A stretch of 22,398 nt of DNA. It comes from a virus. The DNA lies in the IMG/VR virus record IMGVR_UViG_3300027743_000021, positions 1 through 22,398 of that record, one strand, 5' to 3'. Under the pieces are notes generated by a model. It was not told the origin of the DNA and did no database searches. It was given only the letters and a program-made list of their open reading frames with translations. Position 1 is the stretch's first letter, and the number at the start of each line of letters is the position of its first letter. The translations under genes were made by a program, and so were the position numbers. Positions 781 to 19,328 of the stretch are shown here, in pieces.

Positions 781-1551
781 CTACCCGGCAGCGCCGGGAA
801 CCTTCGTGCCGAATTCGGCGGTAGCCTTCTCCGCCGCCGGGCCGGGTTCGTCCGCCGGAATGCGTCCTTTGAGGCTTTTCCACCGGTGGAACAGGTACAA
901 CTGCGTCCACCTGGACACGTCCTCCAGCGGATCCCCCGGTTTCAAACAGGACAGGTTCAGGATGTTGACGGCTTCCTTGTCGTGCTTCGTTTCCGCGATG
1001 TTCGCCACGCGTTCGACCATTTCGCGGGGCCACTTCGAGCCGGTGGATTGCATCGGCTGTTCGGGTTCCTCGTGGTACTCTCCCTCTACCGGCATTTCCT
1101 CGGCCGGGGTCGGCTCGTATCCGGCCAGCTTCATAATCCACGAGAAGGATAGGCGGAAGGCTTTGCCTGTGGCGCGGGTGGTCGCCATCGACCGGCGGGC
1201 GTAGCGCGGGCGGCTCATCCAGGTCGGCTCGTCCGTTCCGCACAGGGCGGATGCGCCGCCGACCTGCTGGCCGTCCTTCGTCCGGATCAGCTTGACCGTG
1301 GCGAGGTAGTCACCATCTTCGGTGAGGGTTACGCTTTCCTCAATCGGCACGACGCCCAGCATGGCCCCGAGGGTAGTCCAGCCGTCCACGAAGACATACT
1401 TGCGGTCTTTGATGACCTTGTAGAGTTGGCGGGTGTTGATGAGGTCTGCCAACCCTTTGGCGAGGATGGTGGCGTTGGCTATGACCTGCGATGGGGCCAT
1501 TTCCACCTGCCCCACCATTACGATTGCGGTTCCTTTCGGTTCGTCAGTCAT
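781..1551 (-). CDS. Putative single-strand annealing (Erf/Rad52-like) protein
   Basis: 256 aa from the chosen ATG, which has a near-ideal site (AAGGAG, 6 nt spacing). A longer form starting at 1650 (289 aa, AAGGA at 8 nt, overlapping the upstream gene by 20 bases) is possible, and the extra 33 codons look codable. Visible: an N-terminal helical part, a beta-rich core with an FVDGWTTLGAMLGV segment, then RSMATTRATGKAFRLSFSWIMKLAGYEPTPAEEMP-type sequence at about residues 125-155 (only key residues cited: S-M-A-x-T-R-A-x-G-K-A and T-P-x-E-E-M). From memory, conserved Ser/Ala-x-x-Arg-Ala-x-x-Lys/Arg-Ala helices also occur in phage Erf/Sak-type recombinases. That resemblance is my inference and is not firm. 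It would anneal ssDNA during replication or recombination. Confidence 0.45.
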   Translation of the reverse strand: MTDEPKGTAIVMVGQVEMAPSQVIANATILAKGLADLINTRQLYKVIKDRKYVFVDGWTTLGAMLGVVPIEESVTLTEDGDYLATVKLIRTKDGQQVGGASALCGTDEPTWMSRPRYARRSMATTRATGKAFRLSFSWIMKLAGYEPTPAEEMPVEGEYHEEPEQPMQSTGSKWPREMVERVANIAETKHDKEAVNILNLSCLKPGDPLEDVSRWTQLYLFHRWKSLKGRIPADEPGPAAEKATAEFGTKVPGAAG

Positions 1552-1630: not shown

Positions 1631-2140
1631 TCAGTGGTCGGTATAGGCATCGTCGCCATCCTTTCCATATTGGGGAGGTTCGCCGTTCGGTTTTGATTCG
1701 CGCTCCTGCGTTGCGTCAAAATCCGGGAGTTTACCGAATGTTCCGAAGCCCGGCTCACTCATTACTTCCTCGGCGGGGCCATGATCGAAAGGGCCATATA
1801 GGGGCGGAGGATCCGGCATCGGGGGCATGTGCGGAAGGGCTTCCTGCTTGGCCGGAGGCGCTATAACCCCGATGTCAATGAGGCATTCCCGCGCCTGCGA
1901 TCGGCTGTCATCGTCGTTTGACGTGTCCGCGATGATTTGCAGCGTCGTCACGAGCGCTTCCTTTTTCTTGATGATGTTGTAGAATTGCGAAAACTCGGGT
2001 TTCTTGTCCATGGTCACTCCTATTCTGTGGGCCAGCCAGTAGGTGAAGTGCTTCCAATACTCGGCCCGCGGGTGATGATCCTGCGCCAACGTCATGGCGA
2101 TGTTTGCGACTTGCAGCAGGACGATTGGTAGGTTATTCAT
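1631..2140 (-). CDS. Hypothetical protein, first gene of the leftward operon
   Basis: 169 aa. No family recognised. The first two thirds look alpha-helical and basic; the last 60 residues are Pro/Asp-rich and probably disordered. I keep the ATG at 2140 because a GATAAT -10 box lies exactly 6 nt upstream, the same spacing seen at three other starts in this genome, which suggests a leaderless mRNA. An alternative ATG at 2011 (126 aa) has a strong internal AGGAG with 5 nt spacing and could give a second, shorter product. The gene precedes the putative annealing protein, so a replication or recombination accessory role is possible. Confidence 0.65.
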   Translation of the reverse strand: MNNLPIVLLQVANIAMTLAQDHHPRAEYWKHFTYWLAHRIGVTMDKKPEFSQFYNIIKKKEALVTTLQIIADTSNDDDSRSQARECLIDIGVIAPPAKQEALPHMPPMPDPPPLYGPFDHGPAEEVMSEPGFGTFGKLPDFDATQERESKPNGEPPQYGKDGDDAYTDH

Positions 2141-2152
2141 GCCAGTATTATC
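2141..2152 (-). promoter_or_regulatory. Leftward promoter -10 box for the 2140 gene, probable leaderless start
   Basis: On the - strand GATAAT (5 of 6 to TATAAT, at 2152-2147) is followed by six bases and then the ATG at 2140. A start site 7 nt after the -10 would fall on the A of ATG. No good -35 box is visible, and the phased operator lies about 21 bases further upstream, so the promoter may need an activator or be weak. Confidence 0.55.
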
Positions 2153-2173
2153 CTACGGTTCGGGCGGAGAAAG

Positions 2174-2201
2174 ATGAGAATCAGGTGAGAATTCCATGAG
2201 A
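2174..2201 (+). promoter_or_regulatory. Operator A, 11-bp-phased ATGAGA repeats
   Basis: Three tandem units begin at 2174, 2185 and 2196: ATGAGAATCAG, GTGAGAATTCC and ATGAGA. The period is 11 bp, one helical turn. The site lies between two divergent starts, 11 bp upstream of the -35 box of the rightward promoter. It matches the reverse complement of 3141-3168 in 22 of 28 positions, and 7946-7967 in 19 of its last 22. The likely ligand is the phage RHH protein encoded at 7735-7932 (inference). Confidence 0.75.
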
Positions 2202-2212
2202 AAAACCCGGGC

Positions 2213-2242
2213 TTGACACCGGCGCAAGAAGTGTGCAATAAT
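2213..2242 (+). promoter_or_regulatory. Strong sigma70-like rightward (early) promoter
   Basis: A perfect -35 TTGACA at 2213-2218, an 18-bp spacer, then a -10 AATAAT at 2237-2242 (5 of 6). The expected start site, 7 nt on, falls on the A of the ATG at 2249. It would drive the small leader ORF and the methyltransferase gene, perhaps also the early genes beyond. This is the best consensus promoter in the window. Confidence 0.85.
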
Positions 2243-2248
2243 TCAGGC

Positions 2249-2362
2249 ATGAAAGCTACCCGCGCAATCGGTAAAATCGTCCCTTGTTTCCAGGCCTTTG
2301 CCCCGTCACCGTCGCGGGTAGCTGAGGCTGAGGTCTGGAAAGAGAGGACGATTTTTTTATGA
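2249..2362 (+). CDS. Small leader ORF overlapping the methyltransferase start
   Basis: 37 aa, starting exactly where transcription from the TTGACA promoter should begin, so it would be translated from a leaderless mRNA. Its TGA stop overlaps the next ATG in an ATGA at 2359-2362. That next gene has only a poorly spaced purine-rich site (AGAGG, more than 10 nt away), so it may depend on coupling to this ORF. The peptide is basic at the N-terminus, has one Cys and matches no family known to me. It could be a real micro-protein, a leader peptide, or merely an untranslated leader. Confidence 0.4.
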   Translation: MKATRAIGKIVPCFQAFAPSPSRVAEAEVWKERTIFL

Positions 2363-2796
2363 CGTATACAAAAGGCAATAAAGGTGATGGGCGGCATTAT
2401 TGGCTTACTCCCCCCGAGATGTTCGAATCAATCCAAGAAGAATTTGGAATAAACTTCGATCCATGCCCGTTTCCAAGGCCAGAAGGATTTGACGGCTTGG
2501 AGATTGAGTGGGGAGGATCCTCTTATGTAAACCCGCCGTTCGGCGGATATATGGATCAAAGAAAGAAAAAGAAAATAGGCCCGACTGCGTGGGCGCGTAA
2601 GGCTATTATAGAATTCAAAAAGGGTAAGAAGGTTGTGTTTGTCTACCCAATAGACAAGTGGGTTTTGATGATGATTGAGGCCGGCGCGGAAATACGAAAT
2701 CTCGGGAATGTAAAATGGCTGGCCACAGAGGACGGGCAACCCGGTAAAGGCACCGGCCGCTGGGTTGCGGAGTTTATATTGGATCCACACAAATAG
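2359..2796 (+). CDS. dam: Phage Dam-type DNA N6-adenine methyltransferase
   Basis: 145 aa, the normal compact size for phage Dam-family (PF05869-type) enzymes, which transfer a methyl group from SAM to adenine in DNA. Visible: W-x-TPP-x-x-F at residues 15-22, FDPCP at 33-37 and the catalytic NPPF at 58-61 (the D/NPPY/F motif), followed by a Trp/Lys-rich helix and a VFVYP strand near 93-97. It is more AT-rich and Lys-rich than the structural genes, which hints at separate acquisition. It likely protects phage DNA against host restriction, or marks the nearby origin. The target sequence cannot be read from the protein. Confidence 0.85.
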   Translation: MTYTKGNKGDGRHYWLTPPEMFESIQEEFGINFDPCPFPRPEGFDGLEIEWGGSSYVNPPFGGYMDQRKKKKIGPTAWARKAIIEFKKGKKVVFVYPIDKWVLMMIEAGAEIRNLGNVKWLATEDGQPGKGTGRWVAEFILDPHK

Positions 2797-2806
2797 TCCG
2801 CGCAGA

Positions 2807-2878
2807 CCCCACCCAGCCGCGCGGACGGTACGCGAGTGCCGCGCGGTGGCAAAAAGCCTGGCAGCCTGGCTGGTGGGG
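2807..2878 (+). other. Highly structured GC-rich element
   Basis: CCCCACCCAGCC (2807-2818) pairs with GGCTGGTGGGG (2868-2878) with one bulged base. Inside are two copies of the self-complementary CCGCGCGG (2817-2824 and 2839-2846), and GCCTGGC occurs twice between 2856 and 2870. No T-run follows, so it is not a standard terminator. It may be a structured RNA, an mRNA-end stabiliser or part of the origin. Confidence 0.5.
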
Positions 2879-2903
2879 CGATGCGATTGAAAGACGGACG
2901 CAG

Positions 2904-3105
2904 TTATCCACAGGCCATCCACAGCCACCCCTTGCGGGCCAAGAACTATCTACCGGCCGGCAAACAATGTCCTTCGTTATCCAAATAACCCATACGTTAT
3001 AGTACGTTCCGCGCGTTACGCGTTGCGCCTCGGCTCGCCGCTGCAGATCACCCGGCAAAGAACACGCCGGGGCGCGGCTCGCCTTCGGCGCTGGTTTTCA
3101 ACCAG
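2904..3105. other. Candidate replication origin with DnaA boxes
   Basis: Part of a 440-base stretch (2797-3238) with no convincing gene apart from a possible 20-codon leader at 3180-3242. A perfect DnaA box TTATCCACA (2904-2912) is followed 11 bp later by CCATCCACA (2915-2923), with a near-match TTATCCAAA at 2977-2985. There are small inverted repeats, GTTAT-CCAA-ATAAC around 2976-2989 and CTGGTT-TTC-AACCAG at 3091-3105, and five CGTT motifs between 2975 and 3024. The phage has no polymerase or helicase gene, so recruiting host DnaA would fit. The origin function is inferred. Confidence 0.5.
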
Positions 3106-3140
3106 ACGGGTAATAGCGAGGCAATATACCCTGTTTATTC

Positions 3141-3168
3141 TCTCATCTGTTTCTTATCTGATTCTCAT
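3141..3168 (-). promoter_or_regulatory. Operator B, reverse-oriented phased repeat
   Basis: Read on the - strand this is ATGAGAATCAG, ATAAGAAACAG, ATGAGA: three units at 11-bp period, identical to operator A in 22 of 28 positions, with all differences in the middle. It lies between the candidate origin and the first small early gene. Unlike sites A and C, no convincing promoter is seen beside it; a TATATT -10-like box lies 13 bases to its left on the - strand. Confidence 0.72.
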
Positions 3169-3238
3169 AAATCTCCCGGATGTCAGGTGTATTCTTATTG
3201 CAGATAAGCGCATCATCTACCGGAAAGGAATGGATACC

Positions 3239-3409
3239 ATGAATACAAAAGATGCCCGCGCCGAATTTATCTATTATCGAGACCGGTGGGAAAACGCAAT
3301 GGATAGTATCCGCGACGCAAAGCCCGAAGATAAAAAACGCGCCGAAAAGACGGCGGAGTATTTCAGACGCGAACTCGAAAGGGCGAGAAAAGAGTATACC
3401 GGAAAATAG
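3239..3409 (+). CDS. Small charged helical protein
   Basis: 56 aa, almost entirely charged and alpha-helical (many Lys, Arg, Glu, Asp), probably one long helix or helical hairpin. No family recognised. The ATG at 3239 follows AAGGA at 9 nt; an in-frame ATG at 3230 is too close to that site. A 20-codon ORF (3180-3242) ends on this start with an ATGA overlap and may be a leader. It is the first gene after the candidate origin and operator B, so early expression under the RHH regulator is plausible. Confidence 0.6.
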   Translation: MNTKDARAEFIYYRDRWENAMDSIRDAKPEDKKRAEKTAEYFRRELERARKEYTGK

Positions 3410-3416
3410 CCTTCTC

Positions 3417-3447
3417 CCCCTTGTCCACCCTCAAAAGTGACAAGGGG
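3417..3447 (+). other. Intercistronic hairpin
   Basis: A perfect 9-bp stem, CCCCTTGTC (3417-3425) with GACAAGGGG (3439-3447), and a 13-nt loop, in the short gap between two small genes. No T-run follows, so an RNA stability or processing element is more likely than a terminator. Confidence 0.6.
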
Positions 3448-3480
3448 CTTGGATCCAAACATTCCGAAAGGACGTGTGCC

Positions 3481-3684
3481 ATGACTCGCAACGAAATGAT
3501 CGAAGCCCTCGCAGAGTGGGGCATCCCGGCCGAGAATATGGCCCTGCTGTCAGACGCGGCGCTAAAGGCGATGTACGATCGGTACATGCCGCCCGTCACG
3601 GATGAGCAGCTAAAGCAGGCGTTTGGGGCGATGCTGCCGAAGGAGAAGGAAGATGCAGATTTACATAGCTTACTGCAACGATAG
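3481..3684 (+). CDS. Hypothetical small protein
   Basis: 67 aa. The ATG at 3481 is preceded by AAGGA at 8 nt, better than the upstream in-frame codon. The N-terminal half (NEMIEALAEWGIPAENM.. to LSDAALKAMYDRYMP) has the look of a short SAP/HeH-type helix-extension-helix module, a fold often used for DNA binding, but the match is by eye only. The C-terminus overlaps the next gene by 32 bases in another frame. Confidence 0.6.
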   Translation: MTRNEMIEALAEWGIPAENMALLSDAALKAMYDRYMPPVTDEQLKQAFGAMLPKEKEDADLHSLLQR

Positions 3685-3877
3685 GCACATTGATCCGGTT
3701 ATCCGCGTGTTCAAGTCGTTCAAATCTGCCTTGGAATTTGCCAAGGAGTTCGTGAAGGAGAATGCTAGATTTCCAGAGGACGTGAAAGAGGAACGGGTTG
3801 CCGGATGGCTGTATTATTGTCAGTATAGCTGTGAAGGCGATTCCGTTCACGTCGAGGCGGGGGAGTTGTTGCCATGA
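3653..3877 (+). CDS. Hypothetical small alpha/beta protein
   Basis: 74 aa. The ATG at 3653 follows a strong AAGGAGAAGGA. A beta strand (QIYIAYCND) precedes a long amphipathic helix (about residues 20-40) and two C-terminal strands with WLYYCQYS and DSVHVEAGEL. The compact order, with conserved-looking aromatic residues, suggests a folded domain, but no function is recognised. It overlaps the next gene by ATGA, so the two are probably translationally coupled. Confidence 0.62.
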   Translation: MQIYIAYCNDRHIDPVIRVFKSFKSALEFAKEFVKENARFPEDVKEERVAGWLYYCQYSCEGDSVHVEAGELLP

Positions 3878-4086
3878 CTCTCCCCATGCCCAACCATGAC
3901 GCGAAGGAAGCGGCGGAACGGCTGGCGGTGGAACGCATGGCAGCCGCCCTGAATGAACATATCAAGGATTGCATCTATGCCAGGTTCGACGGCGTGTACT
4001 GCATGGGCTGTAATTTTTACAAGGATCATGCGGCCCTGGAGCACTATCGCCGTCTCATCCCCGCCGAGCAGGAGGCGAAGAAGTGA
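3874..4086 (+). CDS. Hypothetical small Cys-rich protein
   Basis: 70 aa. A charged helix (residues 8-33) leads into a cluster C-x9-C-x2-C near residues 35-48, followed by His residues at about 54 and 59. This could hold one zinc ion, but the pattern matches no named family. The start overlaps the preceding stop (ATGA) and the stop overlaps the next GTG start. Confidence 0.58.
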   Translation: MTLPMPNHDAKEAAERLAVERMAAALNEHIKDCIYARFDGVYCMGCNFYKDHAALEHYRRLIPAEQEAKK

Positions 4087-4286
4087 AACCAGTGACGGAA
4101 ATGACTTGGGAAGAATTGTGGAATAACGCATTCAATTCAAAAGCCGGTCAGGACGAAATAATGGCCCGGCTCCGTGAGCGGGATGCGGCGAAGGAATGGG
4201 GCGAACGATACCCGGCTTCGGTTGGCGGTGGCGATGGTAATCGTCTACTTGCCGCCATGCTCGCATCCCGTAAACCGCAGGGGTAG
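4083..4286 (+). CDS. Hypothetical small protein, GTG start
   Basis: 67 aa, starting with GTG in a GTGA overlap with the preceding stop; GGCGAAGAA upstream is a weak ribosome site. Trp-rich N-terminus (MTWEELWNNAF), then a charged helix (EIMARLRERDAAKEWGERY). No family recognised. The overlap architecture supports its being real. Confidence 0.5.
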   Translation: MKPVTEMTWEELWNNAFNSKAGQDEIMARLRERDAAKEWGERYPASVGGGDGNRLLAAMLASRKPQG

Positions 4287-4317
4287 CACCGGGCGTCTCC
4301 CGGCTCAGGAACCGGGG

Positions 4318-4404
4318 ATGCCTATTGATCGAGGGAAGACCTGCTGGACCTGTACCGCTTCCCCGAACCCGGATCGTCATAAGCAAGAGACCGAAAGGAG
4401 CTAA
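4318..4404 (+). CDS. Possible micro-protein with a CWTC motif
   Basis: 28 aa between two better supported genes. ATG at 4318 with AGGA 7 nt upstream; it ends two bases before the next start. It contains Cys-Trp-Thr-Cys and a downstream His, which could bind metal. It is very short and may be spurious, but otherwise 4287-4406 would be one of the few gaps in this tightly packed block. Confidence 0.3.
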   Translation: MPIDRGKTCWTCTASPNPDRHKQETERS

Positions 4405-4406
4405 GG

Positions 4407-4688
4407 ATGTTGAAAATTAAAATGATACCGTGTACATGCCGCGGTCACGCCATTCAGGTTGCTTGGTTTTCCGAAGATAAAGACCCTGATTACCAAGATA
4501 TTTACCTAACCTTTTTTACGTCATATCATCCCTATTACAGTCTATGGGACAAAATAAAACTTGTGTGGAAAATCCTTATTCATGGTGAGACGGAGGGCAA
4601 TGATATTACCCTGACAAACGACGACGCGAAAGTGCTGGTCGCAGAGATAAATTGTGCGTTGAAGGAAGTTACCCCCGCTCCGCAATGA
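4407..4688 (+). CDS. Hypothetical protein, AT-rich gene
   Basis: 93 aa. Excellent ribosome site (AAAGGAGCTAAGG before ATG). It starts with a Cys-x-Cys-Arg-Gly-His stretch (CTCRGHAIQVAWF) and has several aromatic beta-like segments (IYLTFFTSYHPYYSLWDKIKLVWKIL), then a helix after a TLTNDDAKVLVAEI stretch. The look is of a small beta-sheet protein with a C-terminal helix. Base composition is clearly more AT-rich than the capsid genes. Function unknown. Confidence 0.65.
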   Translation: MLKIKMIPCTCRGHAIQVAWFSEDKDPDYQDIYLTFFTSYHPYYSLWDKIKLVWKILIHGETEGNDITLTNDDAKVLVAEINCALKEVTPAPQ

Positions 4689-4717
4689 TACGGATCGCGG
4701 GTCAGAGAGGAGATGCG

Positions 4718-4897
4718 ATGAACTGGATACTCAGGAAAATATGCGTGATGTATTACGAGTCTTTCATCCGGTCATTCCAATCATGGGTGGATGAGAAGTA
4801 CGGATACCACACTAACTATGTATTATTTATCAGGCATGGATTATTGAGAATGATGCACGAATTCGTGGAAGATATTGAGAAGGGAGAACGGCGATGA
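4718..4897 (+). CDS. Hypothetical small aromatic-rich protein
   Basis: 59 aa. The ATG at 4718 follows GAGAGGAGA. Helical, aromatic and basic, with MNWILRKICVMYYESF and FIRHGLLRMMHEFVEDIEKG. Its hydrophobic stretches are too broken for a clear membrane segment. The stop overlaps the next start (ATGA at 4894-4897). No family recognised. Confidence 0.55.
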   Translation: MNWILRKICVMYYESFIRSFQSWVDEKYGYHTNYVLFIRHGLLRMMHEFVEDIEKGERR

Positions 4898-5835
4898 GCA
4901 ACGAACTGGTAGCGGCTGTTCAGAAATACGTTGATACCGTTTTGGAAGCCAGCAACGAGGACGAGGGCAACTTTTACGTCGGCGATAATCTGGCGTACGA
5001 AGAAATGGTTGCCGCCCTCCGCGCATCCCCTGCGGCCCCCGAGGCTCCAATCATAGTTACATTATGCGGATCGACGCGCTTCAAAAAAGAGTTTGAGGAC
5101 GCTAATAAATCCGAGACGCTTGCTGGGCGGATCGTTTTATCATGCGGTGTATTTGGGCATGATCCAGACGAGCCAGAACTTTCCGACGAAGCAAAAAATG
5201 AACTGGACGAATTGCATAAGCGGAAGATTGATCTCTCCGATGAAATTTTGGTAATCAATGTGGGGGGATATATCGGGAAGTCCACTCGCGGGGAAATTGA
5301 ATATTCCAAGGCGCACGGGAAGCGTATTCGATATTTGGTTCCTGCGGCCCCCGAGGGCGGGGAGAAGTGTACCTGCGGACATGCAATTAAGGACCATTCG
5401 CAAAGCAGGGCAGATACCAACTATCAAAAAATTTGTACCCTATGCTCATGTAAAAATTTTACGTTGCTCCCCGCCTCCCCCGAGCCGACGCGGAGGGAGT
5501 TGGGGGAAAAGCCAGAATGCGATTGTGCCCCCTCGTATGAAGAGGAGGGTGGAGTATTGCGGCATGGTTGCCCGGTGCATGATCCTAAGAATTACCGTCC
5601 CGCCCAACCTGCCGCACAGAGCGCGGAGCCAAACCTGACGATAGACTTGACGGCAATATTGCCTGATATGCCAGAGTCTAAATACGTCCTCATGGCGCGA
5701 TATGTGGCGGCGCTGGAGGTGGTTGGGATGTGCGTGGAGGCGTTGCGGCGTGTAGCAAACAAATACGGGATGGATGATGGTGACCGCGCCGCCATCGCCG
5801 CCGCCTCTGCTATTCTGAAAAGGGAGGCAAAGTGA
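4894..5835 (+). CDS. Modular protein: nucleoside deoxyribosyltransferase-like domain plus Cys/His modules
   Basis: 313 aa. Residues 1-45 form a helical N-terminal part. Residues 53-148 look like a nucleoside 2-deoxyribosyltransferase/DUF4406-type Rossmann domain: CGSTRFKKEF (58-67), GRIVLSCGVFGHD, LHKRKIDLSDEILVINVGGYIGKST (about 107-131) and EIEYSKAHGKRIRYL. Two Cys/His modules follow, C159-x-C-x-H-x3-H with C181-x2-C-x-C186, and C209-x-C211 with C226-x2-H229. The last 70 residues are helical. Short AP/SP-rich linkers (near 45-52, 149-155 and 192-199) join the modules. The first domain may act on nucleotides or on nucleotide-derived signals; catalysis is unproven. The start overlaps the previous stop and the stop overlaps a GTG start. 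Confidence 0.7.
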   Translation: MSNELVAAVQKYVDTVLEASNEDEGNFYVGDNLAYEEMVAALRASPAAPEAPIIVTLCGSTRFKKEFEDANKSETLAGRIVLSCGVFGHDPDEPELSDEAKNELDELHKRKIDLSDEILVINVGGYIGKSTRGEIEYSKAHGKRIRYLVPAAPEGGEKCTCGHAIKDHSQSRADTNYQKICTLCSCKNFTLLPASPEPTRRELGEKPECDCAPSYEEEGGVLRHGCPVHDPKNYRPAQPAAQSAEPNLTIDLTAILPDMPESKYVLMARYVAALEVVGMCVEALRRVANKYGMDDGDRAAIAAASAILKREAK

Positions 5836-6068
5836 CAGACGTAAATGCCGTTCTTCCAGATGGCAATAAATGGGCTGGCCCGATAGATAAATTATCGGAT
5901 TATCTTCTCTACCACAAATTGGTTGTCGATGAATGCGTCCGGCTGACCGCCGAAAAGCATAGAAAATTCTACGATGGAATGGATTACCGGGAAGAATGGA
6001 AAATGGGAATACCGGCAGACGAAACCGCCGACGCAAACGTTGACGCTACAGATTGGGAGGAAGAATGA
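5832..6068 (+). CDS. Hypothetical small acidic protein, GTG start
   Basis: 78 aa, GTG start in a GTGA overlap with the preceding stop; GGGAGG lies just upstream with good spacing. A central helix (YLLYHKLVVDECVRLTAEKHRKFYD) is followed by an acidic, probably disordered tail ending in WEEE. No family recognised. The stop overlaps the next start (ATGA at 6065). Confidence 0.6.
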   Translation: MTDVNAVLPDGNKWAGPIDKLSDYLLYHKLVVDECVRLTAEKHRKFYDGMDYREEWKMGIPADETADANVDATDWEEE

Positions 6069-6373
6069 GCGACAAACCGACACAGTATAAAAATTGGCGT
6101 GAGTGGTGGGATATGTCACCAGAAGCCAACCCGATACCACTCATTCCGTCTTATGAAGCAGTATCACAAGTCACTTGGATTGCGGCTCAACGCGCCCGCG
6201 ACTTGGAGGTAAAGGCGCTGAGGGAGGCGCTGGAAGATGCCACAAAGTCGTTGGAGACAATAGCAAATAGAGCGGGCAAACGGGATGAGCTACTTGAACA
6301 TATTCAGCAAATACGAGGATACGCCAATTCTCGCGCTATATCTGCCCGCACCGCGCTTGGCGTGAAGGGGTGA
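6065..6373 (+). CDS. Hypothetical protein with coiled-coil segment
   Basis: 102 aa from the ATG at 6065, which follows GGGAGGAAGA. The N-terminal 40 residues are Trp/Pro-rich (NWREWWDMSPEANPIPLIPSY). Residues 45-85 form a long charged helix, likely a coiled coil (LEVKALREALEDATKSLETIANRAGKRDELLEHIQQI). No function recognised. It is coupled to both neighbours by 4-base overlaps. Confidence 0.6.
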   Translation: MSDKPTQYKNWREWWDMSPEANPIPLIPSYEAVSQVTWIAAQRARDLEVKALREALEDATKSLETIANRAGKRDELLEHIQQIRGYANSRAISARTALGVKG

Positions 6374-6639
6374 GTTATGGGATCTGCGAAATCTGCGGAA
6401 AGTGGCGGGAATTGGAGCGTAATCACGTCATCATTCATCGTGCCAAAGGGTACTCACGTTGGCTCGATGATCCTCGGAATATCGAATTGGTCTGCCATGC
6501 CTGCCACATATATCCTGCACACACTCACCAGCACAAAGTTGAAGTCTGGCGACGAAGAGTGGAAAATGGTATTACTATGCAAGCTTGGTGGGAAAGCCTG
6601 CCATTCGAGCTTACAATAGGGAGAGCGAGGCCGGGATGA
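6370..6639 (+). CDS. HNH-like small nuclease or zinc protein
   Basis: 89 aa, GTG start (GTGA overlap). It carries CEIC at about residues 6-9, an ERNHVIIHRAKG segment, an asparagine in DDPRNIELV, and CHACH. This C-x2-C...NH...N...C-x2-C-H order is that of small HNH endonucleases, which nick or cut DNA using one metal ion in a beta-beta-alpha fold. HNH genes in tailed phages often sit near the terminase and aid packaging; this one sits in the early region instead, so it may act in DNA degradation or be a relic. Activity is inferred. Confidence 0.65.
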   Translation: MSYGICEICGKWRELERNHVIIHRAKGYSRWLDDPRNIELVCHACHIYPAHTHQHKVEVWRRRVENGITMQAWWESLPFELTIGRARPG

Positions 6640-6869
6640 AACCTAAAGTATACGGGGTTACACACGCAAGCGCATCTTATGAGCCGAATTATCTGATGCG
6701 GATAAAATTGGAACTTGCCGCCGATCCTGGATTTGACGTTATGCCGTTGCTGAAAAGCAGTGACTGGGGAGACTTATTCCCCGGAAACGTCATCGTGAAA
6801 TGTCAGCATTGTGGTCAATGGGCTGCTCGTAAAGCCGATTGCCACAAATGCGGCGCACCTGTGGATTAG
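6636..6869 (+). CDS. Small protein with C-terminal zinc ribbon
   Basis: 77 aa from the ATG at 6636, in an ATGA overlap with the preceding stop. The first 50 residues are unassigned; the end has C-x2-C-G then about 10 residues and C-x2-C-G, a classic zinc-ribbon pair. It ends head-on against the endolysin gene: its TAG (6867-6869) and the endolysin TAA (6868-6866) share bases, with no terminator between. Function unknown. Confidence 0.62.
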   Translation: MKPKVYGVTHASASYEPNYLMRIKLELAADPGFDVMPLLKSSDWGDLFPGNVIVKCQHCGQWAARKADCHKCGAPVD

Positions 6870-7738
6870 GGGTACAGCTTGTGATCCACAGCCAACGTCT
6901 TTAGAATAGCGTCCTTGTCGGCCTTATCCCACGGATCAGGGGGAATGGGCGCTTCCTTGCCAACCCATACGTTGTAAGCCGCCTCATCCCCGTTGAATAT
7001 GCTGTAATCGTAGTGATCCTTGGCACCGGGCAGGTATATCCCGGATTGCATCTGCCAGAATGACCATTCCTCGGGCTTCAACCCGGGCGGTCGGTTCCCG
7101 GCCCACGCGATCGGTGAGCCTTCCGGCGTCCACTTCTCCCATTCCTCCCACGTCTCCATAACCACGCTTTCGGCCTTTAGGGACGGATATGCTGCAATCC
7201 ACGGCTTACGGGCGCGGAAGGGCCAATCCTTCAACTTGCAGGCCGATTCCGGGAACCATGCGTAAGTGTAAAGCTCCAACTGACGGAGCATGGCGAGGTC
7301 TTTGTGTTCCAGCATGTAGTTTGCAGCGTTCAGGTTCTTGGCCGGGGCTGCCTGGGGGACGTCCGCCCAAGGGATTTCCCCCCGGGAGGCCTTCGCCCAT
7401 GCCGCCCAATCCCCCCATGTTTGCTCCCAATCCAGTAAGCCGACCTCTACCCCCAGCCGCTTCAACTGGCCGGCGAACCGCTGTACTTGCGCCTCGAGAG
7501 GCTGAACCGGATCGGCCCAATGATAAAGGGACACGTCCCAGCCGGCGGCGCGGAAGTAGTTAGCGTACCATTCGACGGTGTCGAAGGCCTTGTTATTCAT
7601 CCAGCGATAGTCCAGCCCGCCCCCCATGCTGGCCTTTATGCAGGCGTGCCGGAAGCCGTGGTCGTACATGGCCTGCAGGGGGAGGGAGAAGCCCGGATAG
7701 TAGTTTCCTGAGTAGAGGTCGATGGCGTAGATATTCAT
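6866..7738 (-). CDS. GH25-family muramidase endolysin
   Basis: 290 aa from the ATG at 7738. The GH25 (lysozyme 1,4-beta-N-acetylmuramidase) pattern is seen in order: an N-terminal IYAIDLYSGNY with Asp7, FRHACIKAS (31-37), GWDVSLYHW (66-74), the acidic pair Asp103/Glu105 in LLDWEQ, a PWIAAYP strand, and near the end WSFWQMQSG plus DYSIFNGDEAAY. It would cut the peptidoglycan glycan backbone to release progeny. No signal peptide, so it should need the holin. The last 25 residues are a short Pro/Asp-rich tail, not an evident wall-binding domain. The start overlaps the RHH regulator stop (ATGA at 7738-7735), an unusual pairing. Confidence 0.88.
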   Translation of the reverse strand: MNIYAIDLYSGNYYPGFSLPLQAMYDHGFRHACIKASMGGGLDYRWMNNKAFDTVEWYANYFRAAGWDVSLYHWADPVQPLEAQVQRFAGQLKRLGVEVGLLDWEQTWGDWAAWAKASRGEIPWADVPQAAPAKNLNAANYMLEHKDLAMLRQLELYTYAWFPESACKLKDWPFRARKPWIAAYPSLKAESVVMETWEEWEKWTPEGSPIAWAGNRPPGLKPEEWSFWQMQSGIYLPGAKDHYDYSIFNGDEAAYNVWVGKEAPIPPDPWDKADKDAILKTLAVDHKLYP

Positions 7739-7932
7739 TTCGTCAAAATCCTCATGTTTTGGAAGGGGCAAACCGGGGCGTTTTCTTTCGTGAATTGCAC
7801 GGCAGCAAATCGTACCAGAAAACGGATAGCTTCCGCGCCGCTCATACCTAATTTAGCAGACACGATAGCAATATTTTCTTTATCCTCTGATTTTATCTTG
7901 AATGTGAAGGTCGTGCCTTTTTTGAATGTCAT
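7735..7932 (-). CDS. Ribbon-helix-helix (Arc/CopG-type) regulator
   Basis: 65 aa. A beta strand (TFTFKIK, residues 8-14) is followed by helix 1 (SEDKENIAIVSAKLG), a turn with Met-Ser-Gly, and helix 2 (AEAIRFLVRFAAVQF), the standard RHH layout in which dimers put paired strands into the DNA major groove. I choose the ATG at 7932 because a TACAAT -10 box lies exactly 6 nt upstream; an ATG at 7947 would add five residues. Operator C begins at the upstream ATG, so autoregulation is likely. The C-terminal 20 residues are extra and unassigned. It is translationally coupled to the endolysin. Confidence 0.75.
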   Translation of the reverse strand: MTFKKGTTFTFKIKSEDKENIAIVSAKLGMSGAEAIRFLVRFAAVQFTKENAPVCPFQNMRILTK

Positions 7933-7947
7933 ATGTACATTGTACAT
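7933..7947. promoter_or_regulatory. 15-bp perfect palindrome over the RHH promoter and start
   Basis: ATGTACA-T-TGTACAT, two 7-base arms around a single base. On the - strand it includes the TACAAT -10 box (7944-7939), placed exactly 6 nt before the ATG at 7932. A symmetric site here could bind a dimeric repressor and block the promoter. It abuts operator C. Confidence 0.55.
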
Positions 7948-7967
7948 CAGATTAGAGTTCCATGAGA
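7946..7967 (+). promoter_or_regulatory. Operator C, phased repeat between divergent starts
   Basis: Matches the last 22 bases of operator A in 19 positions, including the shared TTCCATGAGA end. Two units at 11-bp spacing are clear (ATTAGAGTTCC, ATGAGA); the third is degenerate. It lies 9 bp upstream of the -35 box of the rightward promoter, nearly the same geometry as operator A (11 bp), and upstream of the RHH gene on the other strand. Confidence 0.75.
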
Positions 7968-7976
7968 GTTTGCCTA

Positions 7977-8005
7977 TTGTAATTCGGACATTCCGGGTAT
8001 ATTAT
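7977..8005 (+). promoter_or_regulatory. Rightward promoter, probable late promoter
   Basis: -35 TTGTAA (7977-7982, 4 of 6), a 17-bp spacer and -10 TATTAT (8000-8005, 5 of 6), with exactly 6 nt to the ATG at 8012. Everything from 8012 round to the terminator at 731 reads in the same direction, so this is the natural start of the late operon. The run of TA repeats around the -10 should melt easily. Confidence 0.72.
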
Positions 8006-8011
8006 ATATAT

Positions 8012-8209
8012 ATGACCAAGGTTATCAATATTCCCGAGGATACCCCCGAAGCTCGGATTGTTGACATTCGAATAATCGTTGAATGCGCCCAATGCGGTAA
8101 ACATTGGGCGTATTCTGCCGCCCAGCAAGGCGCAATCTCCATGATCTGCCTTGACTGTGCGAACAAGAGGCCAGCTAAACTGCACGAAACCTATCCGAAT
8201 TCACCATAA
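8012..8209 (+). CDS. Small zinc-ribbon protein, first gene of the late operon
   Basis: 65 aa. C-x2-C (about residues 25-28) and C-x2-C (about 46-49) form a zinc-ribbon pair. No ribosome site precedes the ATG; instead the -10 box is 6 nt away, so a leaderless mRNA is expected. As the first product of the rightward promoter next to the RHH gene, it could be a regulator of late transcription, but only its place suggests this. Confidence 0.62.
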   Translation: MTKVINIPEDTPEARIVDIRIIVECAQCGKHWAYSAAQQGAISMICLDCANKRPAKLHETYPNSP

Positions 8210-18668: not shown

Positions 18669-18968
18669 ATGGCGACGAAAGGACAATTTGACCGCATGGA
18701 AGCCAAAATCGACAACCTTTCCGCTCAGATGGCTAAGCTCGTAACGGATTTCGCGGTCGTGAAGAAATGCACGGAGGATAATGATCTCGTGTTACACGGG
18801 CCGGACAAGCGGAGCGGGCTGGTGGGGGAATTCGGTCGTCTGTCCACCCAGCAAAAGCTCGTGGTGGGTATCATGGCGACCATCGGCACGGCCACGCTCT
18901 CCGGGGTGGTGATGCTTATCATCCAGGCCATCTCCGTCGCCAATGCTCTGGCGCAAGTGGTGAGGTGA
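18669..18968 (+). CDS. XhlA-like membrane protein with coiled coil
   Basis: 99 aa. A charged coiled coil at residues 5-40 (FDRMEAKIDNLSAQMAKLV) is followed by a single membrane segment at about 65-92. This order is that of XhlA-type haemolysin/holin accessory proteins, which anchor to the membrane and help lysis. Preceded by TAGGAGAGCG. It lies before the terminase genes, apart from both the other holin and the endolysin, so a structural role is not excluded. Confidence 0.55.
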   Translation: MATKGQFDRMEAKIDNLSAQMAKLVTDFAVVKKCTEDNDLVLHGPDKRSGLVGEFGRLSTQQKLVVGIMATIGTATLSGVVMLIIQAISVANALAQVVR

Positions 18969-18971
18969 CCC

Positions 18972-19328
18972 ATGGGCTTCAAAAAAGGATTTGACCCGAA
19001 ACGCAATTTGAAGGGCAGGCCGCTCAAAGGTATCACGATTGCGGACCTGTTCGCGCAGGAAGGCGACCGGGTGGATAAGGCTTCCAAACTTACCAATCGC
19101 CAACTCCTCATTCATAACATGTACATGGCGGCCATCGCGGGCGACCCTGCGTTCGCGCGTCAATGCCTGGAGCGCGAATACGGAAAGGTGCTGGAGGAAA
19201 TCCAGCTCACAGGCGGGCGCACGAAGCCGCTCGACCTGTCGAAGCTGTCCGAGAAGGAATTGGGCGTGCTGATGACGCTGCTCAACAAGGCGGAACCGGA
19301 TGACCCTGATACTCCCGACGCGGAATGA
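18972..19328 (+). CDS. terS: Terminase small subunit (DUF5681-like)
   Basis: 118 aa. The N-terminal GFKKGFDPKRNLKGRP is the typical start of DUF5681 proteins, often coded right before terminase large subunits; it is basic and likely binds DNA. Then helices, including LLIHNMYMAAIAGDPAFARQCLEREYG. The small subunit would recognise the phage packaging site. The following terminase start lies inside its last 29 bases. Confidence 0.72.
   Translation: MGFKKGFDPKRNLKGRPLKGITIADLFAQEGDRVDKASKLTNRQLLIHNMYMAAIAGDPAFARQCLEREYGKVLEEIQLTGGRTKPLDLSKLSEKELGVLMTLLNKAEPDDPDTPDAE

Follow-up and report, generated by a model that had tools for sequence, protein, structure and literature searches.

Three intergenic sites in a phage genome carry nearly the same phased repeat, which raises the question whether they form one class of control site and which protein would read them. 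The window, that is the whole stretch of DNA analysed (22,398 nt; IMG/VR record IMGVR_UViG_3300027743_000021), is a complete circular phage genome of 22,271 bp with the terminal 127 bases identical at both ends.

One box at three sites

The sites were found where the initial annotation had placed them, at 2174-2201 (+) for A, 3141-3168 (-) for B and 7946-7967 (+) for C. A and B agree in 22 of 28 positions, A and C in 19 of 22 and B and C in 16 of 22. The intergenic position of all three was upheld, as were the divergent promoters described on both sides of A and of C. One site had been assigned to the neighbourhood of the origin; B lies downstream of a gap holding a perfect DnaA box (TTATCCACA, 2904-2912).

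In the whole genome the pattern RTRAGA-N5-RTRAGA with at most one mismatch gave five matches, all of them in A, B or C, with 0.72 expected; this number was reached in 0 of 100 shuffles. The consensus with up to two mismatches returned only A, B and C in the window and the reversed control returned no match. A matrix search of the full circle, which the initial annotation had proposed, was performed with a matrix of the three sites. These scored 35.8, 35.3 and 32.8 and the best non-overlapping place of the whole circle 4.9; hence coding DNA holds no comparable match.

The natural unit is found on the opposite strand and consists of YTCTCAT plus 4 bp, arranged as direct repeats with a period of 11 bp. 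Read in this way, A points to the left, B to the right and C to the left towards the RHH gene. Three units each are present in A and B, two units plus a conserved spacer in C. Coordinates of the boxes, promoters and genes are given in Table 1.

Table 1 Boxes, predicted promoter elements and genes around A, B and C
Feature	Position	Strand	Remarks
Box A	2174..2202	(-)	TTCTCAT-GGAA-TTCTCAC-CTGA-TTCTCAT; 25.4 and 21.7 bits (matrix of other phages)
Box B	3140..3168	(+)	CTCTCAT-CTGT-TTCTTAT-CTGA-TTCTCAT; 26.2 and 23.1 bits (matrix of other phages); towards early operon
Box C	7951..7968	(-)	CTCTCAT-GGAA-CTCTAAT, then CTGA spacer; 21.9 bits (matrix of other phages)
-10 GATAAT	2148..2153	(-)	Leftward recombination operon; ATG 2140 follows after 6 nt; 21 nt from box A
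Divergent promoter TTGACA-N18-AATAAT	2213..2242	(+)	6 nt before ATG 2249
-10 TATTCT	3190..3195	(+)	Poorest of these matches (4/6); 21 nt from box B
-10 TACAAT of RHH gene	7939..7944	(-)	6 nt before ATG 7932; 6 nt from box C
Divergent promoter TTGTAA-N17-TATTAT	7977..8005	(+)	6 nt before ATG 8012
phrog_19042-like early protein	781..1551	(-)	E 3e-17; leftward operon from A
169-aa protein, first gene of leftward operon	1631..2140	(-)	Open frame
37-aa leader frame	2249..2362	(+)	Overlaps dam-like gene by ATGA; strong hairpin inside
Phage DNA adenine-methyltransferase-like gene	2359..2796	(+)	phrog_111, 2e-11
Early operon of small genes	3239..6869	(+)	Presumably driven from B; HNH at 6370-6639
GH25 lysin	6866..7738	(-)	PF01183, 6e-8; shares operon with RHH gene
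65-aa RHH-like protein	7735..7932	(-)	RelB/DinJ- and CopG-like N-terminal motif; stop overlaps lysin start
Small Cys4 zinc-ribbon-like protein	8012..8209	(+)	First gene of rightward late operon

The box in other phages

Scanning of IMG/VR for ATGAGA-N5-RTRAGA-N5-ATGAGA yielded 67 stretches, among them several low-complexity arrays and two contigs with many dispersed copies. Further records were added by a second, free-gap scan with TTCTCAT-N4-TTCTCAT-N{8,34}-TATAAT. The phage records referred to below are G001 (IMGVR_UViG_3300044712_002507), G002 (3300042691_020140), G003 (3300044712_002610), G005 (3300020042_009526), G006 (3300012667_000859), G007 (3300047546_001733) and G008 (3300032288_003761). 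The shared box is YTCTCAT-STRA-TTCTCAT, with up to about 17 copies per genome in the other phages, and its reversed 18-mer is absent from all studied phage records. Another pattern, ATCAGNTNAGAN5ATGAGA, was discarded after 54 matches in viral contigs, which by our own estimate is about chance level.

The box-carrying phages form groups with almost no genes in common. G002, G006, G007 and G008 are kin. What G001 has in common with them is limited to PolA and a weakly matching Cas4-like nuclease. The window has one small enzyme-like domain in common with G001 and no clear match to any other of these phages. Close relatives of the window were found neither by TerL, MCP or RHH in viral contigs nor by MCP in genome contigs, nor among named phages (searched with MCP, portal, lysin, the 781-1758 gene and RHH) and plasmids (RHH). 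The matches obtained were remote only: terminases, a capsid protein at 24%, and L064, whose TerL matched at 36% and portal at 34%.

A matrix was built from 48 18-mers of G001, G002, G006 and G007, with the sites of the window left out. On the window it ranked B first, followed by A and C (Table 1), and gave the next place 4.8 bits; the spacers and the weights are independent of the window in this comparison, the letters of the arms not fully so, as the search pattern was derived from it. The mean of the maxima in 500 first-order Markov genomes was 10.1 bits; none of these genomes reached the score of the best 18-mer of A or of B, and three reached that of C. A, B and C are one and the same box, confined to these three intergenic places of the genome and phased by the helical turn.

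Phasing to the -10

Arrays of the box were chained, and for each the best -10 with a match of at least 5/6 was taken from the region 3-45 nt further downstream. With the near-duplicate G008 left out, a -10 was obtained for 64 arrays from the six remaining records of other phages. The distance from box to -10 was 10 nt in 17 cases, 21-23 nt in 34, 32-34 nt in ten and 43-45 nt in two, with one outlier. For the 64 arrays R(11) was 0.91 with a Rayleigh p of about 1e-23, a value to be taken as a guide only because the sites within a phage are not fully independent. G001 has 13 of 14 arrays at 10 nt, always with a perfect TATAAT; distances are mostly 10, 21, 22 and 32 nt in G002, 22-23 and 32-34 nt in G006, and 22 and 32 nt in G007. 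In the window, A and B are both found at 21 nt. With these two included, 56 of 66 arrays lie outside all frames longer than 80 aa, and 42 are within 200 nt of a start on the same strand. A good -35 is usually missing at the 10- and 22-nt positions; at the 34-nt position, seen in G006, a consensus TTGACA-N17-TATAAT follows. An activator that touches RNA polymerase needs such phasing and a repressor does not. Thus, the ladder of distances indicates an activator as reader of the box.

Promoters and transcription units of the window

At A and C a -10 hexamer stands exactly 6 nt before the ATG of four genes that have no Shine-Dalgarno sequence, namely GATAAT at 2140 (-), AATAAT with TTGACA at 2249 (+), TACAAT at 7932 (-) and TATTAT at 8012 (+). 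AAGGAG-type sites precede most other genes. Genome-wide, a -10 occurs 5-7 nt before 11 of 762 ATGs, these four starts included. The -10s assigned leftward at A and C thereby gain support independent of the box. On account of this rarity the four starts resemble leaderless divergent promoter pairs, and A and C each look like the partition between two divergent promoters of leaderless type. The end of box A lies about 10 nt upstream of the -35 of the rightward promoter at 2213..2242.

Five transcription units are predicted, their limits being taken from the gene order. Beside A start the leftward recombination genes (2140 to 781) and the leader with the dam-like gene (2249 to 2796), beside B the early operon (3239 to 6869), and beside C the RHH-lysin unit (7932 to 6866) and the late operon, which runs from 8012 onward through zero. 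For the 169-aa protein at the head of the recombination genes no family match was obtained. A start of all five predicted units beside A, B or C is supported. With one class of site at every predicted start, a single DNA-binding factor could coordinate all of them, and control of the phage in one circuit by the shared box class is plausible.

C departs from the spacing of 10+11n nt by its distance of 6 nt to the -10 of the RHH gene. At so short a distance it covers the spacer between -35 and -10 of the RHH promoter. As far as the predicted promoter is correct, C sits across the RHH-lysin core promoter, in a repressing position.

Which protein reads the box

From the arrangement of boxes and promoters we infer activation at A and B and repression at C; the binder, too, is inferred. 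A, B and C would belong to one class of control box, direct repeats of YTCTCAT every 11 bp, that is also used by unrelated phages. The protein would occupy the repeats side by side along one face of the DNA and, with the last unit 10, 21-22 or 32 nt upstream of the -10, would help RNA polymerase to start. In the window this would switch on the leftward recombination operon from A and the rightward early operon from B, and binding at C, over the core promoter, would hold the RHH-lysin operon down. The binder may be a host-encoded, winged-helix and tandem-binding activator of the PhoB/OmpR type, borrowed by the phage, with the RHH protein as the main alternative. A host factor is favoured by the box-carrying phages themselves, for which no protein family common to all was found. 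We regard the boxes as a shared promoter control class with such an activator as the most likely binder, and would give this assignment an even chance. Points against it are that C stands at 6 nt, that the -10 at B matches only 4/6, and that a recognisable RHH gene is present in two of the four box-carrying groups, besides the outcome of the search for bacterial counterparts given below.

Direct-repeat binding is typical of the PhoB/OmpR family (PMC7380067), and the site of PhoB consists of two 11-bp direct repeats (PMC3978041). The phage box resembles the Pho box in its asymmetric 7-bp direct repeats, which stand in tandem at a step of 11 bp upstream of a -10 without a good -35. It differs in the arm, which is TTCTCAT in the phages and CTGTCAT in the Pho box. 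The 10-nt step of G001 corresponds to the layout of pstS in E. coli. Binding of host PhoB to Pho boxes in cyanophage promoters was demonstrated by EMSA (PMC10976474). There, as proposed here, the site of a host response regulator is located in phage promoters; but in cyanophages few phage genes and phosphate stress are concerned, here many or all early promoters. PF00486 (Trans_reg_C, the DNA-binding domain of response regulators) was absent from six phage records.

Bacterial counterparts of the box were sought as well. The exact 18-mer occurred in 0 of 400 Chloroflexota and 0 of 300 Bacillota genomes, and neither phylum was kept as a candidate host or source of this 18-mer. In Bacilli, a scan with the 10-nt gap fixed in advance detected TTCTCAT-N4-TTCTCAT-N10-TATNNT upstream of OmpR-type response-regulator, PepSY, SecA, Spx and DedA-like genes of Paenibacillus, Bacillaceae and Macrococcus, the gene names being assigned by eye from translated frames. 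The position before these genes suggests that arm and geometry are used by a real bacterial regulator. The spacers are mostly S-T-R-A in the phages and different in the Bacilli boxes. Together with the 0 of 700 genomes this means that no known host regulon has the exact box. ArlR was considered as reader because spx is a target in Macrococcus, and was set aside after its motif was not found in the literature searched, which also contained nothing usable on a regulator of TTCTCAT direct repeats.

According to the initial annotation, the phage's own RHH protein could read all sites and one protein could thereby set early, late, lysis and replication timing. The shared class of site at all predicted unit starts agrees with this; as reader the RHH protein is a candidate, a recognisable RHH gene being present in the window and in one other of the four box-carrying groups. 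The gene at 7735-7932 (-) is an open frame that begins beside C, as described, but its assignment to the RHH fold relies on weak matches, all below the cut-offs (RelB_DinJ with E 0.026, phrog_12301 with 0.09, CopG-like with 0.2), and on a hallmark spacing judged by eye. The Pfam profiles RHH_1 and RelB miss it, and a single-sequence AlphaFold model (pLDDT 57) was too poor for use.

A reading in which this protein binds A, B and C, with repression of its own RHH-lysin promoter at C and control of the promoters of the early and recombination genes, is less probable than a host activator. The RHH protein is the sole recognisable regulator among the gene products scanned in the window, and C over the -35/-10 spacer of its gene is the usual place for autoregulation. 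RHH proteins are able to form arrays on 10-bp direct repeats, as ParR does (PMC5016525). G005, which also carries the box, encodes two RHH proteins in an operon downstream of it; one matches Pfam RHH_1 and is the best phmmer match to the window protein among the frames of the box phages (E 0.74). In the other two groups, G001/G003 and G002/G006/G007/G008, however, the box is repeated, and searches with phmmer, a pattern, Pfam RHH_1 and a three-sequence profile detected no RHH; these tests are of limited reach, as Pfam RHH_1 and RelB also overlook the protein of the window. Furthermore, activation, as implied by the 10+11n phasing, is an uncommon role for a small RHH protein.

With the operators of RHH proteins (Arc, CopG, ParR-parC) the boxes share the array of short sites spaced by roughly one turn of the helix beside an RHH-like gene; they differ as direct repeats phased to the -10, and in most phages carrying them the tests made detected no RHH. 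The half-sites of Arc-type proteins and CopG are inverted. The initial annotation had drawn a likeness to Arc, a repressor; the boxes, by contrast, are direct repeats, and their strict 10+11n spacing points to an activator.

It is unlikely that each phage encodes another activator for the box, such as a protein like CII or a small one not recognised so far. Enrichment of the box in phages, its absence from the 700 bacterial genomes and, in G007, a CII(CP76)-like protein besides matches to other HTH families speak for it. Direct repeats near the -35 are also known from lambda CII. On the other hand, the groups have no family in common except PolA and the Cas4-like nuclease, and the window shares neither; a shared phage regulator was dropped as reader for want of a candidate among the box-carrying phages. 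Chance or recent copying of functionless repeats is very improbable: the 22 of 28 positions shared by A and B alone are, by our own estimate, near what an all-pairs search of the genome could give, but the match to the independent matrix, the strict placement to the -10 and the intergenic location argue against it.

Significance of a possible shared early-promoter box

We lean slightly towards the view that the phased YTCTCAT box is an early-promoter code common to several unrelated uncultured phages, in which a single activator, probably derived from the host, acts as master switch of infection. If unrelated phages have one activator box in common at all or most early promoters, infection would depend on the state of a single regulator, which may be a host signalling system. 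The box would serve as a tag that predicts early promoters, their direction and the targets of the regulator in uncultured phages, and the host regulator would become a testable target.

Stoperators of mycobacteriophage L5 are dispersed, asymmetric single 13-bp repressor sites with their orientation fixed to transcription, many of them inside transcribed regions. The boxes are likewise dispersed and asymmetric with an orientation set relative to transcription, but each comprises two to four units, placed upstream of a -10 at set helical intervals. Their ladder of 10, 21, 32 and 43 nt is a natural test set for the reach between activator and RNA polymerase.

Results and discussion

For the non-coding gap beside box B, one of the three control boxes of YTCTCAT direct repeats, a candidate function is suggested by its sequence. 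A perfect DnaA box was located at 2904-2912 and TTATCCAAA at 2977, and the gap is a candidate replication origin adjoining the box.

Features of the window and of a further box-carrying phage
Feature	Location	Remarks
Non-coding gap, 344 bp	window 2797-3140	adjoins box B
ATG starts with a -10 hexamer 6 nt before, without Shine-Dalgarno sequence	window 2140(-), 2249(+), 7932(-), 8012(+)	
Leader of the dam-like gene	window 2243-2362	37-aa frame, ATGA overlap with dam
Two small ribbon-helix-helix-type (RHH) genes, tandem, overlapping each other	L386:6786-7218	phage G005

The leader of the DNA adenine-methyltransferase-like (dam-like) gene contains an imperfect, strong hairpin (-50.6 kcal/mol, z -3.8), which ends in a T run immediately upstream of the dam ATG. 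An Rfam search of this leader gave no matches. The hairpin may be an attenuator. In contrast to the four ATG starts listed, most other genes of the window have AAGGAG-type sites. These four are probably leaderless promoters located at regulatory points.

Among the other phages with the same box, G002, G006, G007 and G008 are related (records of 54-76 kb) and carry a gene for a BMP-like substrate-binding lipoprotein; G007 additionally matched Mom-type DNA modification (PF25680) and ThyX. Phage G001 encodes QueC, QueD-like, FolE and radical-SAM proteins, a set probably responsible for preQ0 DNA modification. Its 110-aa protein (18840-19172) matched the product of window 4894-5835 (E 3e-26).

In Paenibacillus/Bacillaceae and Macrococcus contigs (within L244-L348), TTCTCAT-N4-TTCTCAT-N10-TATNNT was found 5' of genes for OmpR-type response regulators, PepSY-domain proteins, SecA and Spx. 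These genes are candidates for a conserved response-regulator regulon, whose regulator is possibly ArlR-like.

Scattered tandem arrays of the TTCTCATAT type, with mirrored copies, were observed at several loci of one MAG, Bacteroidales RGIG4882 (L255, L260, L292, L293). They resemble a mobile element or a repeat element.
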